A stretch of 64,000 nt of DNA from Deltaproteobacteria bacterium (lineage in GTDB: Bacteria > Desulfobacterota > Binatia > Binatales > Binataceae): NCBI GenBank assembly GCA_021831785.1, contig JAKBMB010000011.1, positions 317,491 through 381,490 on the forward strand. Direction: 5' to 3'. The position numbers and the translations under genes are program-made. Shown here piece by piece: positions 55,272-64,000 of the stretch. The stretch's first letter is position 1; every line of letters begins with the position of its first letter. The notes under the pieces were generated by a model. It was given only the letters and a program-made list of their open reading frames with translations. It did no database searches and was not told where the DNA came from.

Positions 55272-55491
55272 AGTGCACCCCCCGCTTTTTGGTTTCGGCT
55301 TTAGCCTGCCGCATAGCACAACGCAAGCCACAGGCGTGCGCCGTTTAAACTCGGAAGGGGTGAGACGCGCGCGCCGCGCCGCGGGCCGCAACCGTCAGCC
55401 GGGCGCCGAGTTGACGCTGGAGCGGCCACGGGAGTAAAAATCAAGTATCTGCAATGTGAAAAATGGAAATTCTGTCCAAAAGGAGCAGGCC

Positions 55492-55701
55492 ATGCGCAAG
55501 AACGTGGGCGCAGCCGACAGGGTGGTGCGCGTCATCGTCGGCCTTGCCCTGTTGTCCGTGCTGTTTCTGGCGCGGGGCAACGCGAGATACTTGGGGCTTA
55601 TCGGCTTGATTCCTCTAGTAACGGCGCTTGTCGGCTGGTGTCCGGCCTGGACCTTGCTGGGCGTCAACACCTGTCCCGTCAAGAGCGGCAAAGCGGCCTA
55701 A
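55492..55701 (+). CDS. DUF2892 family membrane protein
   Basis: 69 residues of the DUF2892 (YgaP membrane-domain-like) family: KNVGAADRVVRVIVGLALLSVLF, LGLIGLIPLVTALVGWCPAWTLLGVNTCP. The two helices and the terminal CPAWTLLGVNTC cysteine pair match family members that are often fused or next to rhodanese domains. AAAGGAG precedes the ATG by six bases. Confidence 0.88.
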   Translation: MRKNVGAADRVVRVIVGLALLSVLFLARGNARYLGLIGLIPLVTALVGWCPAWTLLGVNTCPVKSGKAA

Positions 55702-57246
55702 GCGCGGCCAGAGAGACGAAGCCCCCCTGGGTTGGGAAGGTCGTCCATCGTGTCGTGATGCTTAGCATCCTCGAACGCACGGATCTTATTCGGTCTCTCA
55801 CCGGCATCGGAGTGTTCCGGTCTGGCTGCGGCCCGAAAGGCCCGCCTTGGATCACTTTCCTTTACTTCAGCCGCATTTAGAACGGAACAGACCCCGGCGT
55901 TTTGCCAAGGTTCGATAAGACCCTCTGTAAGAAAGCTATTTGAGGTCGCGCGTGCGCGCGCTTAGGACGCGATGGGGGCATTAACCTTTGCATGCCCAGC
56001 GGTCGCTGATAGTACCCCAAAAAGTTTCTGGTCGTACGCGCTAGTATACCGAGTCGCAAATTCGTCTACGAAAGGCTCGGCGAAGGCTGTTTTCAGGTCA
56101 TCCTGAGAGTTTGTGATTTTTTTAACGTCAGCGTTTGGTGTCATCCTGAGCGAGCGTCGCGCGAGTCGAAGAATCCCGGAAAAACGAGGGGTCTTTCGAC
56201 TCCCGCCGCGCCGGCGTTCGCTCAAGATGACACAAGATTGGGCGGAACTCAAAAACTCACAAACCCTGAGCGCAGCGAGCCGGCGAGCGGAGTCGAAGGG
56301 CCTCGCGCGCTCCTGCGTGCGTCATGGGTACGGCGAATGCGGCCGTCGCGACGGCGGCCGCGAATTCCCTTCGACTGGGCTCAGGGCAGGCTCTTCGACA
56401 CGGCTCGCTTCGCTCGCCGGCTCAGGATGACAGAGGCGGCGGTGCTGGCGGCTGCCGCAGCGATCGGCACCTTAGCCCCGAATTATTCAACGCACTTTAA
56501 ACTCGGAACACTAGGCGCCGCTGTTATAACCACTGTGCGGCGGCAAAATGGGTCCGGGCCTAATTTCGGCCTCAGTGGCTGGCTTTGAGAATCGGAGTGG
56601 CTCAGTTTGCGCGAGGACCCCCTGGTCCGAGCAAGAGCGATCTTTTCATTATCCTGAAGCAATTGATCACATTTGCAGCAGAGGCAGTAGGTCCATTTTC
56701 AGTTTTTCTCGTTATCGACCAAAGAGCGGAGTCTACCCTCCTGACCGCATCCGTCACGCTGGCACTTGGTTTGAGTCATCGTCTATTCCTGCGTGAGGCG
56801 CGGATCGTCAGGAGCGGCTATAGTAGCGATGCATTGTGCGATTGCCGCTTGCGTATAAGCCAGCGCCGGGACTCGCCGCAGGCCGCGCTAAAGCCACGAC
56901 CCTCAAGGAGCGGGGCGCGGCTAAAGCTTGGGTCTAGGCCGGCGCTCCCAAGTGTTTCACGCCGCGAACCGAACCGCCCCGAACTTCTCTTTGGTCCTTG
57001 TCGTCGGGCGCCGAGCGTTGCAGCACTTGCGCCGCTCGGTATCCACGCCGCGCTTGGCCCAACAGCGAGCGGGTAACGCCGCGCCATGGACCGCGACCTA
57101 GTATGCGCGAGGCAAGCCGTTCGCTAAACTGGTTTAATTGCTGTTAAAGGCCGGCCTTGAGACGCCTGATACGGGCTGCGGAACAACCGAGCTTGACGCA
57201 GCGTCCAAGCCGCGGCCGGTCCCTTTTTTGGCAAGGCGTGCGCAGG
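55702..57246. other. Long gene-poor region with family B repeat
   Basis: About 1.5 kb. Contains the repeat 56103-56270, followed to about 56440 by further repeated TTCGACT/GCTCGCTTCGCTCGCCGGCTCAGGATGACA-type sequence. From 56450 to 57246 there is one open frame (56585-57076, TTG start) with a hydrophobic patch, but no family resemblance, so I do not call it. Otherwise nothing is recognised. Confidence 0.5.
56103..56270 (+). repeat. Intergenic palindromic repeat, family B copy 2
   Basis: A 168-bp element whose reverse complement matches 4201-4370 from end to end. The terminal inverted repeats read CTGAGAGTTTGTGATTTTTT and, reversed, CTCAGGGTTTGTGAGTTTTT. The interior has GTGTCATCCTGAGCGAGCG and its inverted partner CGCTCAAGATGACAC, forming a long hairpin in single-stranded form. 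Confidence 0.72.
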
Positions 57247-57462: not shown

Positions 57463-59685
57463 GTGACGGACCACTCCGCCGAAGAAGTCCTTAAGCACGC
57501 CGAGACGGCGCGTCGCAAGCGCGAATTGACCGTGGTTACGGTCGCCGGCGTGCTCTTGCTGCTGTTCGCGCTGGCCGAGACGCTGTTGCCGCCGTTCACC
57601 AACCACACGTCTCTGCTTTCCAACATCGTAGTCATTTTGCTCTTCGACCTGAGCTTCGTCCTGCTCGGCCTGCTGGTGTTCCTGGTGGGACGCAATCTGG
57701 CCAAAGTCATCTTCGAGCACCGGCGCGGGATGATAGGGTCGAAACTGCAAGGGCGGCTGGTGGTTGGGTTCATCGCGGCGGCGTTGATTCCGAGCTTGTT
57801 TCTGCTCTACGTTGCCGAGTCGTTTTTGCGGGCCAATATCAACGCCTGGTTCGACCCGGAATATCAAAAGGTACTCGACGACTCGCTGGCGATCGCGAAG
57901 ACCTACTACCTTAATTCTGCCAACCAGGCGCTCCATGACGGGCGCGAGCTTGCGATGCAGATCGCCGAAGGCGGGCTGATGGAAAAAGCGCAACGCGCCT
58001 CGCTTAAGCGCTTTATCGAGCGCAAGCAGCGCGAATACGGCCTCGGTACGATTGAAGTCTTTTCAGCCGACCGCCGTCTGCTGGTGTTGGAGCTGGGCCC
58101 CCACACTCCGGCGAGCATCGGCGTTGCTCCGGAATCGCGGTTTCTGCTCAACCTCTTGCAAGGCCAAGCGGTTTCGCAGACCGAGCATCTGGGGAAATCC
58201 GACGTGATCCGCGGCGGCGCTCCAATCTACGCCAAGGCCGAGGGTGACGCTATCGTCGGCGCCGTGGTCGTCGATTACTATTTGCCGAGGAGCCTGGTCA
58301 AGCGCGCTGACTCGGTGTCGCGCAGCTTCGACGACTACCTGCAACTGCGCACCCTTAAGCGGCCGATCTTCCGCAGCTACATCCTGGTCCTGGTGCTCAT
58401 CGCACTGGTGGTGGCCTTGCTCGCGAGCTGGCTCGGAATCTACCTGGCGCGCGGCATCACCGGGCCAATCAAGCTGCTTGCCGAGGGAACCCAGGCCGTG
58501 GCCGGCGGCAACTTGAACTACCAGATCATGCCGGTGGGAGACGACGAGATCGCGCATCTGGTGCGGTCGTTCAACCAGATGACGGCGGACCTGCGCGCGT
58601 CCCGCTCGGAACTGGAGCGGCGCCGGCGCGCCATCGAGACCCTTTTGCACAAGGTGCCGGCGGGCGTGGTCGCGATCGACGTGCTGGGTGGTCTGCTCAC
58701 CATCAATCCGTGCGCCGAGCGCTTGCTCGGGGTCACGGCCGCGCAGGCGCTCGGCTGCCGCTACGCGGAGGTGCTCCCGACGCAGGTGGCCAAGGTGCTG
58801 GACGAACAGCCGCGCGACGGAGCGGGGTCCAGAGACTTCCGCTGTTCAATCGAGCTGGGCCGCAACCCCGGCGAGCCGGAGCTGATGATGACGGCCACGC
58901 CCCTGGAACAAGAGGACGGCTCCGTGGGCGGGCACCTTTTGTTTTTCGAAGACGTCAGCCAGATCGCCAAGGTCGAACGTATGGAGGCCTGGCGCGAAGT
59001 GGCGCGTAGGATCGCCCATGAGATCAAAAATCCGCTCACGCCGATTCGGCTTTGCGCCGAGCGCATTCGCCGCCATCTTAACGGCGCCGTTCGCCCCGAA
59101 ACGGCGCGCCTTCTCGACGAATGCAGCCGCACGATTCTCAGCGAGGTCGAAGACCTCAAGCATCTGCTCGACGAGTTTTCGGCCTTCGCGCGGCTGCCTC
59201 ACCTAAACCCGATTCCGGGAGACCTCAACGCAGTGGCCGAGGAGGTCTCGAGCAACTTCCGCAAAGCGCATCCCGAAATCAATTTCACCCTCGAGCTTGA
59301 GCCGGGACTGCCGACGATCATGCTCGATCGCGAAGCGATCAAGCGCGTCTTGGTTAACCTGCTCGACAACGCGGCGGCCGCCACCAGCGCGAGCGCGCCG
59401 GCGCCGTGGATCGGGCTTAGAACGCACCTCAACGCAAGAAGCGGGATCGTAACTCTAGAGGTGGCTGACAACGGCCCAGGCATCAAACCGCACCTCAAGA
59501 CCCGCATCTTCGAACCATATTTCTCCACGAAAACTGACGGCGCCGGGCTCGGCTTAGCGATCGTCTCGGCAATCGTTACCGACCATCATGGCTTCGTGCG
59601 GGTGAGAGACAACGCGCCGAGCGGAAGCAAATTCGTGCTAGAGTTTCCCGTGAGAGGACAGCGGCTGGCGCACGCCATCGGGTAA
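57463..59685 (+). CDS. ntrY: NtrY-type membrane sensor histidine kinase
   Basis: 740 residues. Three to four N-terminal transmembrane helices and an extracytoplasmic segment (about residues 115-290), a further helix, then HAMP (GITGPIKLLAEGTQAVAGGNLNY), PAS-like domain (about 390-500), HisKA with H-box EVARRIAHEIKNPLTPIRLCAERIRRH, and HATPase with NLLDNAAAAT, VADNGPGI, YFSTKTDGAGLGLAIV. This is the NtrY layout; NtrY usually pairs with NtrX. Here the next gene carries the receiver domain fused to LpxC. GTG start at 57463 lies three bases after the DUF2905 stop. Confidence 0.93.
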   Translation: MTDHSAEEVLKHAETARRKRELTVVTVAGVLLLLFALAETLLPPFTNHTSLLSNIVVILLFDLSFVLLGLLVFLVGRNLAKVIFEHRRGMIGSKLQGRLVVGFIAAALIPSLFLLYVAESFLRANINAWFDPEYQKVLDDSLAIAKTYYLNSANQALHDGRELAMQIAEGGLMEKAQRASLKRFIERKQREYGLGTIEVFSADRRLLVLELGPHTPASIGVAPESRFLLNLLQGQAVSQTEHLGKSDVIRGGAPIYAKAEGDAIVGAVVVDYYLPRSLVKRADSVSRSFDDYLQLRTLKRPIFRSYILVLVLIALVVALLASWLGIYLARGITGPIKLLAEGTQAVAGGNLNYQIMPVGDDEIAHLVRSFNQMTADLRASRSELERRRRAIETLLHKVPAGVVAIDVLGGLLTINPCAERLLGVTAAQALGCRYAEVLPTQVAKVLDEQPRDGAGSRDFRCSIELGRNPGEPELMMTATPLEQEDGSVGGHLLFFEDVSQIAKVERMEAWREVARRIAHEIKNPLTPIRLCAERIRRHLNGAVRPETARLLDECSRTILSEVEDLKHLLDEFSAFARLPHLNPIPGDLNAVAEEVSSNFRKAHPEINFTLELEPGLPTIMLDREAIKRVLVNLLDNAAAATSASAPAPWIGLRTHLNARSGIVTLEVADNGPGIKPHLKTRIFEPYFSTKTDGAGLGLAIVSAIVTDHHGFVRVRDNAPSGSKFVLEFPVRGQRLAHAIG

Positions 59686-59744
59686 GCCGCGCGCGGCGCC
59701 TTTTATCGGCCCCGCGAGGATGTTGGAGCGGATGGGGAGTCAGG

Positions 59745-61067
59745 ATGTCGGAGCGAATGAACAGTCGAGCGGAAGACACGATACTCATAGTCGACGACGA
59801 AGAGCGAATCCGCTCTTCGCTCAAGGGCATACTGAGCGACGAAGGCTTTCGCGTGATCGACAGCGGCGAGGCCACGCGCGTGGTGGAGATCGTGGAACAA
59901 GAGCACCCGCGCTTGGTGTTGCTGGACGTATGGATGCCCGAGCGGGACGGCATCGATCTGCTGCGCCAGATCAAACTCGGCTCGCCGCAGACTGAGGTCG
60001 TAATGATTTCCGGCCACGGCAATATTCAGAACGCAGTCGCGGCGATAAAGCTCGGCGCAGCGGACTTTATCGAAAAGCCCTTCTCGGTCGAAAGCCTGCT
60101 CAACACTATCGCTCGTGTGCTGGCCGGGGCCGAAGAGCCGGCAGCGGCCGCCGGTCGAGGGCCGCTTTCGAACGCAGACCGCGGAGCCAATCCTTCGACA
60201 TCGCCGGCGACGCTGCGCCAGAAGACGATCAACCGTTCAGCGGTACTCGCCGGCCAAGGCTTGCACTCCGGATCGAGGACCGGCGTAGTTTTGCAACCCG
60301 CGCCGGCCGGCTTCGGCGTCGTCTTCATGCCGCTTTCCTCCGACGTCGCCATCCCGGCGCGGCTGGAGAACGTCTCCGATACCGGCTACAACACCACGGT
60401 TTCACGGGGCGGATATCACGTGCGCACGATAGAGCATCTGATGTCGGCACTGCACGCCTTCGGCATCACCAATCTTCTAATCAAAACCGAAGCGGAAATC
60501 CCTTCGCTCGACGGCTCGGCGCTCGACTTCTGCCGGCTCATCGCCGAGGTAGGCACCCGCGAACAGGACGCTACGGTGACGCCGCTGCGTGTTGACGAAC
60601 GGATCGTGGTGGGCGACCGGAACCTGCGCGAAGAGTATTTAAGCATCGAGCCCGCCGACAGCCTCATCATCGACTACACCTTGGTATATCCGCCGCCGAT
60701 TGGAGTTCAGCGCGCCTACTTTGAACTCGGCTCGCCGGACGAGTATGTGCGCGAGGTCGCTCCCGCGCGCACCTTCGGCTTGGTGAGCGAGATGCGCAAG
60801 CTCTCGGCGATGGGGCTTGCCCAAGGGGGCCGCCTGGACAATTGCATCCTGGTCGGCGACGACAAGGTGGTAAACACCGAGTTGCGCTTTGCCAACGAGT
60901 TCGCCCGCCATAAAGTGCTTGACCTGATCGGCGATCTCTACATTATGGGGCGGCCGGTCCTGGGCCGCATCGTAGCGCACAAGACCGGCCACTCCGACAA
61001 CGTCGCGCTGCTCAAGGCGCTGCGGAAATATTGCGAAGGCAGAGGATTGGGCGCGCCGCGCCATTGA
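59745..61067 (+). CDS. lpxC: Response-regulator receiver domain fused to LpxC deacetylase
   Basis: 440 residues in one uninterrupted frame. Residues 8-127 form a receiver domain of NtrX/NtrC type: DD17-18 acidic pocket, phosphoacceptor Asp61 (LVLLDVWMPERDG), Ser89 (VVMISGHGN) and Lys111 (DFIEKPFS). A Pro/Ala/Gly/Ser linker (about 128-157) leads to a complete LpxC, residues 158-440, the zinc enzyme for the committed step of lipid A synthesis: KTINRSAVLAGQGLHSG, HVRTIEHLMSALHAFG (Glu230, His231), EIPSLDGSA, FARHKVLDLIGDLY (zinc His389, Asp393) and HKTGHSDN (His416). The NtrX AAA+ and DNA-binding domains are absent. GGGGAG lies six bases before the ATG. Confidence 0.95.
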   Translation: MSERMNSRAEDTILIVDDEERIRSSLKGILSDEGFRVIDSGEATRVVEIVEQEHPRLVLLDVWMPERDGIDLLRQIKLGSPQTEVVMISGHGNIQNAVAAIKLGAADFIEKPFSVESLLNTIARVLAGAEEPAAAAGRGPLSNADRGANPSTSPATLRQKTINRSAVLAGQGLHSGSRTGVVLQPAPAGFGVVFMPLSSDVAIPARLENVSDTGYNTTVSRGGYHVRTIEHLMSALHAFGITNLLIKTEAEIPSLDGSALDFCRLIAEVGTREQDATVTPLRVDERIVVGDRNLREEYLSIEPADSLIIDYTLVYPPPIGVQRAYFELGSPDEYVREVAPARTFGLVSEMRKLSAMGLAQGGRLDNCILVGDDKVVNTELRFANEFARHKVLDLIGDLYIMGRPVLGRIVAHKTGHSDNVALLKALRKYCEGRGLGAPRH

Positions 61068-61101: not shown

Positions 61102-61878
61102 TTGCTCGCGCTCGGCAACGATGGATTAATTCGCCTAGGAGCGACGCAAGCTTTGCCTCGTTTCACGCGCGCTAAGCACGGCGGTTCGCCGCACAAGGGG
61201 TATAGCCCGGCGCCGCTAACGGGACGAATCGCCGTGCTGACAAGCGGCGGCCTCGACAGCGCGGCGCTCATCGCCGAAAGCGCGCGGGTTTACGCAAGCG
61301 TCTATCCCCTATACGTGCGGGCAGGCATGATCTGGGAGCGCAACGAGATTACGGCGCTCCGTCGTTTTTTAACCGCGCTGAGACTCAAAACGATCCGGCC
61401 GCTCGTTGTTTTGAACCTGCCGATGGACGACCTGATACGCGATCATTGGAGCATCACCGGAAAAAAGGTCCCGGGTTATCGCGCCGTGCTCTCTTCCAAC
61501 TACATCCCGGGGCGCAATCTGAGCTTAATCTGCAAGGCCGCGATCTTTTGCGCGCTTAATCGAATCGCCGAGATCGCCTTAGCCACACTGCGGTCGAATC
61601 CTTTTCCGGACGCGCAGCCCAAATTTTTCGACGCCATCACCGACGCCATCACGCTCGGCGTGGGGCTCAAGCTTAAGGTGCGCGCGCCCTATCTCGGCAT
61701 GACCAAGGCCGACCTCATCCGACGCATGAGCCGGCTGCCATTTGAACTGACCGTCTCCTGCATCCGCCCCAAGGGCATTATCCATTGCGGCGCCTGCACC
61801 AAATGCGCCGAGCGTGTCGAGGCGTTTCGCGACGCCGGTGTCCCGGACCCGACCAAGTACGCAAAGCGCGAAGTTTAG
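61102..61878 (+). CDS. QueC-like 7-cyano-7-deazaguanine synthase family protein
   Basis: Up to 258 residues. The PP-loop is VLTSGGLDSAALIAE, and the C-terminal zinc site is SCIRPKGIIHCGACTKCAERVEAF (C-x9-CGxCxKC). These match the QueC/ExsB ATP-pyrophosphatase family, which makes preQ0 for queuosine. The middle part is unlike typical QueC, and no QueD, QueE or FolE genes lie nearby, so a related but different amidation substrate is possible. The start is uncertain: TTG 61102 opens the frame, but the conserved part begins only near residue 40. Confidence 0.8.
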   Translation: MLALGNDGLIRLGATQALPRFTRAKHGGSPHKGYSPAPLTGRIAVLTSGGLDSAALIAESARVYASVYPLYVRAGMIWERNEITALRRFLTALRLKTIRPLVVLNLPMDDLIRDHWSITGKKVPGYRAVLSSNYIPGRNLSLICKAAIFCALNRIAEIALATLRSNPFPDAQPKFFDAITDAITLGVGLKLKVRAPYLGMTKADLIRRMSRLPFELTVSCIRPKGIIHCGACTKCAERVEAFRDAGVPDPTKYAKREV

Positions 61879-63554: not shown

Positions 63555-63699
63555 CGTTTCTAATAGCTCCACTTCCCCCTATTTTTGTCAAGTCGGTGTG
63601 GTGGGCTTAGGTGACCTAAAGTAAGCAGGAAGCGACCGGCGAGCAAACCTTTTCATCGCAATACTTGACACAAGTATCATAATCTGCTAACCTTTGATC
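63555..63699. other. Upstream region of the IS1595-type transposase
   Basis: This AT-richer stretch may contain the left end of the insertion sequence, but I cannot define a terminal repeat because the right end is off the window. It holds the promoter/operator listed next. Confidence 0.45.
63661..63693 (+). promoter_or_regulatory. Sigma-70-type promoter overlapped by a palindromic operator
   Basis: A good -35 (TTGACA, 63665-63670) and a -10 candidate (TAACCT, 63688-63693) are 17 bases apart, upstream of the transposase ATG at 63700. The perfect inverted repeat ATACTTG-ACA-CAAGTAT (63661-63677) covers the -35, the layout expected for a repressor site. With only six bases from -10 to the ATG, the message would be almost leaderless. 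Confidence 0.55.
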
Positions 63700-64000
63700 A
63701 TGGCCAAAGGACAAGGCAGAGTTGCCGAAGATAAGAGCGAAATCGTCGCGGCATTACCAAGGGCTTGCGCCGATGAGGTAGCAGCCGTCGAATTTTTTGA
63801 AACGCAGCGATGGAGCGAAACCGGCTCCTGCTGCCCGCGTTGCGGCGATACGGATGTTTACCAGATGCGGGACCGCAAAACCGGCGAGCGTAACCGGCGC
63901 TTTTTGTGGAAGTGCAACGGCTGCCAGAAACAATACACCGTGCGCGTCGGAACAATTCTCGAAGAAAGCCTCATCCCTTTGCGCCATTGGGCTTATGCGT
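63700..64000 (+). CDS. IS1595-family (ISXO2-like) transposase, N-terminal part
   Basis: The first 100 codons of an ISXO2/IS1595 transposase, cut by the right edge. MAKGQGRVAEDKSEIVAALPRACADEVAAVEFFETQRW is followed by the N-terminal zinc ribbon CCPRCGDTDVYQM...RRFLWKCNGCQKQYTVRVGTILEESLIPLRHW, which marks this family. The catalytic DDE part lies beyond the window, so intactness is unknown. Confidence 0.85.
   Translation, partial: MAKGQGRVAEDKSEIVAALPRACADEVAAVEFFETQRWSETGSCCPRCGDTDVYQMRDRKTGERNRRFLWKCNGCQKQYTVRVGTILEESLIPLRHWAYA

Follow-up and report, generated by a model that had tools for sequence, protein, structure and literature searches.

Why would a response-regulator receiver be joined to LpxC, a drug target and the enzyme that commits the cell to LPS synthesis? 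A gene of this kind lies, directly behind the gene of an NtrY-type histidine kinase, in the 64,000 nucleotides of DNA analysed here (the window). The comparisons below led us to a reading that we hold with somewhat more belief than doubt, namely that the membrane sensor NtrY would phosphorylate the LpxC fusion itself and so gate the enzyme.

A receiver and LpxC in one open reading frame

The features of the locus used in the argument are as follows:

57463..59685, + strand: NtrY-type membrane histidine kinase, 740 aa, the presumed partner (Pfam NtrY_N, HAMP, PAS, HisKA, HATPase_c)
59734-59739, + strand: GGGGAG, Shine-Dalgarno-like by sequence, in the 59 nt that separate ntrY from the fusion
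59745..61067, + strand: receiver-LpxC fusion gene, a single ORF with ATG start, 440 aa plus stop
59781..60110, + strand: receiver domain, residues 13-122 (Pfam Response_reg), inside the NtrX-type receiver clade
59925-59927, + strand: codon of the phospho-acceptor Asp61, within the receiver domain
60126..60215, + strand: linker, about residues 128-157, with pLDDT below 50 at 130-149; its length and sequence differ between the aligned proteins
60219..61025, + strand: LpxC catalytic domain, residues 159-427 (E230, H231, T343, H389, K390, D393, H416)

The sequence-only reading had seen here one frame made of a receiver and a complete LpxC, placed behind an NtrY-type kinase and devoid of the AAA+ and DNA-binding domains of NtrX, and the profile searches bore this out on each count. 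Pfam Response_reg matched residues 13-122 of the fusion with 101 bits (cut-off 30.2), Pfam LpxC (PF03331) matched residues 159-427 with 276 bits (cut-off 27), and the NCBIfam model TIGR00325 (lpxC) scored 242 bits, above its equivalog cut-off of 187. As a single ORF holds both domains, each far over its cut-off, chance read-through was ruled out. The receiver has D17, D18, D61, S89 and K111 all in place, and the LpxC domain likewise has E230, H231, T343, H389, K390, D393 and H416, whose zinc-binding and catalytic roles are presumably those of E. coli LpxC. By profile and residues the LpxC domain is complete, and deacetylase activity is predicted for it.

Compared with LpxC (UDP-3-O-acyl-N-acetylglucosamine deacetylase), the fusion shares the full catalytic domain and has the N-terminal receiver in addition. 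With NtrX it shares the type of receiver and the neighbouring NtrY, but carries LpxC instead of the AAA+ and DNA-binding domains: a Pfam scan of the fusion found neither of the two, and the NtrX equivalog model NF051870 gave 123.5 bits against a cut-off of 600. LpxC-FabZ proteins also have a second domain fused to LpxC, but the Pfam scan detected no dehydratase domain beside LpxC in the window fusion, and the LpxC-FabZ model NF009667 scored 201 bits against a cut-off of 465.

The fusion starts 59 nt after the ntrY stop codon, and the GGGGAG motif ends 5 nt before its ATG. NtrY_N in the upstream kinase passed its cut-off narrowly (25.8 versus 23.2 bits) and the remaining kinase domains were over theirs. 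The H-box of this kinase (HEIKNPLTPI, residue 519) is intact, and the phospho-acceptor histidine was present in all 70 NtrY locus matches that cover it, several of the loci being from the same genomes. In the window genome (G000; 3.68 Mb assembly, 96% complete) the fusion is the sole LpxC match. A search of this genome for LpxB gave no match, whereas 26 of 29 relatives-draw genomes gave one. As for the surroundings of the locus, the gene after the fusion (61102-61878) encodes a QueC-like protein that passed Pfam QueC, yet with 68 bits stays below the equivalog cut-off of 150. The start of an IS1595-type transposase (zinc ribbon; 63694-63999, cut by the window end) lies about 250 nt after a tRNA-Ala gene, and no inverted repeats were found at 55400-57200 of the window.

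Distribution of the fusion and its linkage to NtrY

Exploring related genomes, we found that the relatives draw (57 genomes, window genome included) carries the fusion in 55, in 54 as a single match across receiver and LpxC and in one (G025) as the same match cut by a contig end. The other two, 53% (G006) and 92% (G011) complete, showed no LpxC, and no second LpxC was seen in any of the 57 among the matches listed. Absence from close relatives, which the sequence-only reading had named as grounds for giving up the fusion, is thus not what was observed; an architecture that recurs in this way is not an assembly error. Two of the fusion matches (G003 and G036) each run through one TGA, that of G003 at residue 436 of the 440-residue frame. 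The search across genomes that had also been suggested extended the finding to the phylum, where 33 of 148 sampled genomes carry a receiver-fused LpxC (15 as one match plus, from later inspection of frames, 8 receiver-LpxC and 10 longer-middle proteins). The middle was AAA+ by Pfam in all six scanned of these ten; in one of the ten (G157) the receiver is in a separate short frame. By frame length alone, G137 also looks like a fusion. When the phylum draw was centred on the genome of Desulfonema magnum instead of that of the window, matches came back at identical contig coordinates, which places the window in the GTDB phylum of Desulfonema, the Desulfobacterota (Thermodesulfobacteriota at NCBI).

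Fusions were also detected in other phyla, in counts that come from samples and are minima because frames of LpxC matches were only partly inspected. In the phylum to which a MAG deposited as Nitrospirae belongs, 10 of 128 genomes had the fusion, five of the ten with a separate LpxC too; in that of a Terriglobia-deposited MAG, at least 3 of 129 had it (G202 and G343 as one match, G411 by frame). In a MAG deposited as Thermoanaerobaculales (L121, G201) the fusion is the only LpxC among the matches listed. A second, separate LpxC is present in G202 and G102 as well as in the five Nitrospirae-type genomes. For 140 genomes from the phylum of a Proteobacteria-deposited MAG and 95 from that of a Rokuibacteriota MAG, the listed matches included none over both domains, and of 13 loci matched on viral contigs none spanned both domains by the listed ranges. 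Where carriers are MAGs, transfer and binning error look alike. In the Nitrospirae-deposited phylum, L253-L261 encode a divergent receiver-LpxC with T343S and H174L and have no ntrY directly upstream.

That receiver-LpxC proteins should co-occur with NtrY held in the window family and class, where NtrY is directly upstream of the fusion in 43 of the 43 genomes with loci (55 are fused), and was looser outside: over all 84 fused genomes NtrY is directly upstream in 49 and not in 33, the latter judged on the 393-2600 nt available, while two stretches were too short. These 33 genomes, in which adjacency was lost or never present, are what one would expect if the receiver were an inherited passenger, the fusion having been kept as neighbours already co-expressed, with little or no regulation. 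We consider this unlikely, given that a search of 25 fused genomes, 22 of them without an adjacent ntrY, revealed an NtrY-like kinase in all 25. The match was strong in 18, G000 included, weaker and nearly full-length in four (G177, G079, G343 and G202), and confined to the kinase half of an NtrY-like protein in three (G150, G116 and G201).

Where NtrX itself is found bears on phosphorylation of the fusion by NtrY, the reading that we prefer. Among 20 NtrY loci from fused genomes none has an NtrX-type receiver beside NtrY; two receiver matches only were seen there, of 75 and 78 bits, one a regulator more than 2 kb away and the other a hybrid kinase. A true NtrX elsewhere in G000 was sought and rejected, as the next receiver scored 75.5 bits compared with up to 125 in unfused genomes of the phylum. 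Outside Desulfobacterota, some fused genomes do keep separate NtrX-like receivers: in three of Nitrospirae type (G209, G504 and G471) these score 105-109 bits in frames of 459, 469 and 415 aa and may be NtrX, and G202 keeps NtrX beside NtrY. Receivers can act as phosphate sinks, and these retained regulators, together with that general knowledge, would suit a receiver that serves NtrY, as sink or feedback sensor, with LpxC tuning NtrY signalling to other regulators. We give this very little credence: across the relatives draw (57 genomes) other receivers score at most 84.6 bits against the query, which leaves no close NtrX-type receiver there to take up the NtrY signal, and no free one was found in the fused Desulfobacterota of the phylum draw among the matches listed.

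Origin of the fusion

D17, D18, D61 and K111 are kept in 52 of 52 fused receivers, with Ser or Thr at position 89 in 49 and Cys in three (L069, L071 and L074). The LpxC domains are equally constant, with E230, H231, H389, K390, D393 and H416 kept in 52 of 52; T343 is present in 43 and replaced by Ser in the nine Nitrospirae-type rows, which also carry Leu for H174. A third form, NtrX-LpxC, of about 730-770 aa, consists of receiver, AAA+ and then LpxC (L045, L047, L053, L054, L055, L059 and others). Pattern searches found GAFTG in 0 of 9 NtrX-LpxC proteins versus 11 of 15 free NtrX-type proteins and a canonical Walker B in 0 of 9 versus 15 of 15, while the Walker A pattern is kept in 9 of 9. 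A remnant of the Fis-type helix region was seen by eye in NtrX-LpxC, for which the pattern failed in 13 of the 15 free NtrX-type proteins as well. Judged by these patterns, the AAA+ middle of NtrX-LpxC is decayed whereas the receiver and LpxC ends are not. The receiver kept its catalytic residues in all 52 rows while the AAA+ part of the NtrX-LpxC form decayed, which again speaks against a mere passenger.

An LpxC tree built from 116 LpxC frames out of 206, after removal of duplicates and of some named unfused loci, placed 53 fused domains on one side of a branch with support 100/100, found in 200 of 200 bootstrap trees. Every fused row has residues K247 and G180 (9 of 9 in the Nitrospirae type, 44 of 44 in the others), compared with at most a quarter of 63 unfused rows. 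A receiver tree (84 rows), which has few columns and unsure inner forks, placed the fused receivers inside a 69-row clade with NtrX-type receivers (SH-aLRT 96); on this placement the fused receiver is of NtrX type by descent.

Inspection of gene neighbourhoods, with neighbour names taken from one representative per cluster, revealed how the two parts may have met. In unfused members of the phylum the order lpxC-(DUF4390)-ntrY-ntrX occurs in a row in 8 of 21 loci (L099-L119, in one of which, L108, lpxC could not be called). The unfused locus L103 reads yebC-ruvC-ruvA-ruvB-queH-lpxC-ntrY-ntrX, and L107 has the same order plus DUF4390 before ntrY; the fused loci L067, L068 and L075 read yebC-ruvC-ruvA-ruvB-ntrY-[receiver-LpxC]. 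Judged by gene order, the fused loci lack the free lpxC, which is found instead attached to a remnant of ntrX. Since lpxC, ntrY and ntrX are often adjacent in unfused relatives, the fusion joined neighbours, a point that also agrees with the passenger explanation. The evolutionary side of our interpretation is well supported within the class of the window and looser outside it.

The neighbourhood is not confined to this phylum: in the phylum of the Rokuibacteriota MAG, 58 genomes have both an lpxC and an NtrX-type receiver match listed, and in 52 of them the two are on one contig and no more than 6 kb apart. As the lpxC-ntrY-ntrX neighbourhood is found there too, the comparison suggests an old link between NtrYX and lipid A that extends beyond the alphaproteobacteria. 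In the LpxC tree the NtrX-LpxC proteins are nested in the receiver-LpxC set, with four changes for the three labels; this fits either an original receiver-LpxC that was later fused again, or an original NtrX-LpxC that underwent several losses. Beyond its fusion, G202 has an intact lpxC-ntrY-ntrX cluster elsewhere. One MAG (loci L285, G102:C302, and L095) carries both a free lpxC-DUF4390-ntrY cluster without ntrX and a separate receiver-LpxC gene; it resembles how an intermediate might look, and a binning error is possible.

Putative control of LpxC by its receiver

CheB is a response regulator with an enzymatic output domain. The fusion shares with it the order receiver, linker and catalytic domain; the output of CheB is a signalling enzyme and that of the fusion a biosynthetic one. 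Response regulators with enzymatic output are thus known, and what we class as new here is an output that is the committed enzyme of lipid A synthesis. The sequence-only reading knew of no described case, and in agreement with it we found no description of a receiver-LpxC protein in titles and abstract starts of the open-access literature, a set that subscription papers mostly fall outside. The terms 'response regulator' and 'fusion' are absent from the available text of an LpxC review (PMC12444477).

Two-component control of lpxC at other levels has been published. The same review describes a drop in lpxC transcription caused by NtrYX in R. sphaeroides and C. crescentus (PMC12444477). An R. 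sphaeroides strain without ntrYX had 8.8-fold more lpxC transcript; no NtrX site was found upstream of lpxC, and the authors judge the effect indirect (PMC7240162). The same two-component system bears on LpxC in Rhodobacter and Caulobacter, there at the level of the transcript. In the sulfate reducer Desulfovibrio vulgaris, lpxC is given as the single mapped target of the response regulator DVU2934, and in Syntrophobacter fumaroxidans lpxC is directly upstream of the orthologous regulator operon (PMC3333781). Both cases pair a response regulator with lpxC, but DVU2934 binds lpxC promoter DNA and the fusion is one protein. In P. aeruginosa, MurA is described in the review as activating LpxC through direct binding (PMC12444477). 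This, like the fusion, would be control by direct contact, but MurA is a peptidoglycan enzyme and the fusion has a phosphorylatable receiver on the same chain. In the sources consulted, LpxC is controlled through proteolysis or transcription and, in Pseudomonas, through binding of MurA. If our reading is true, the receiver would let phosphorylation switch the genome's only LpxC directly.

In detail, LpxC would itself serve as the output domain of a response regulator, the NtrX receiver having been joined to LpxC with the ATPase and DNA-binding parts of NtrX gone. NtrY would sense envelope or redox state, autophosphorylate and pass the phosphate to Asp61 of the fusion receiver. The phosphorylated receiver would change its packing against LpxC, or its tethering of it, and deacetylase activity would be raised or lowered, setting lipid A output without transcription. 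The proposed phosphorylation of LpxC by NtrY draws support from the NtrX-type ancestry of the receiver, from a decay in NtrX-LpxC that is confined to the AAA+ part and from the published two-component control of lpxC transcription in other bacteria. Our confidence in gating was lowered, and the passenger explanation raised, by the exceptions of G202 and the Nitrospirae type and by the Desulfovibrio precedent. As to the sign, by analogy with CheB we lean slightly to an unphosphorylated receiver that inhibits LpxC and is released by phosphorylation; that NtrYX represses lpxC in Rhodobacter points to the reverse sign. With this fusion, which in its group of Desulfobacterota is usually found beside NtrY, outer-membrane synthesis may be under the direct control of a membrane sensor. 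The fusion would also be a simple protein for asking what NtrY senses, since its output is a measurable enzyme, not a regulon.

Alternatively, the receiver could govern the amount or place of LpxC and not its turnover, through recognition by a protease (e.g. FtsH) or by tethering near NtrY at the membrane. We rate this as possible though doubtful. Enterobacterial LpxC is controlled by proteolysis, and the LapB zinc-ribbon was over cut-off in 0 of 18 genomes of the window family (G000-G017, with one match below cut-off, in G004) versus 7 of 11 others of the class, so the usual adaptor may be missing there. The LapB profile has 28 positions, with at most 150 candidates scored per genome, and it matches genomes free of LPS too, e.g. 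Bacillus subtilis; being short and matching such genomes, it is not specific.

A structure prediction, proposed earlier as a check on the fusion, was obtained with AlphaFold for the window protein with 26 fused sequences and gave a mean pLDDT of 86.6 and a pTM of 0.86, with residues 130-149 below 50. The high pTM is read as pointing to a defined packing of the receiver and LpxC domains in this protein. For a family whose alpha-5 helix is long, a second model reached a pTM of only 0.72, so the packing may not be conserved across families. The nearest solved receiver is 4d6x, labelled as a Fis-family regulatory protein, which we take to be NtrX, and the 50 best Foldseek matches listed were all LpxC structures, at 34-37% identity.
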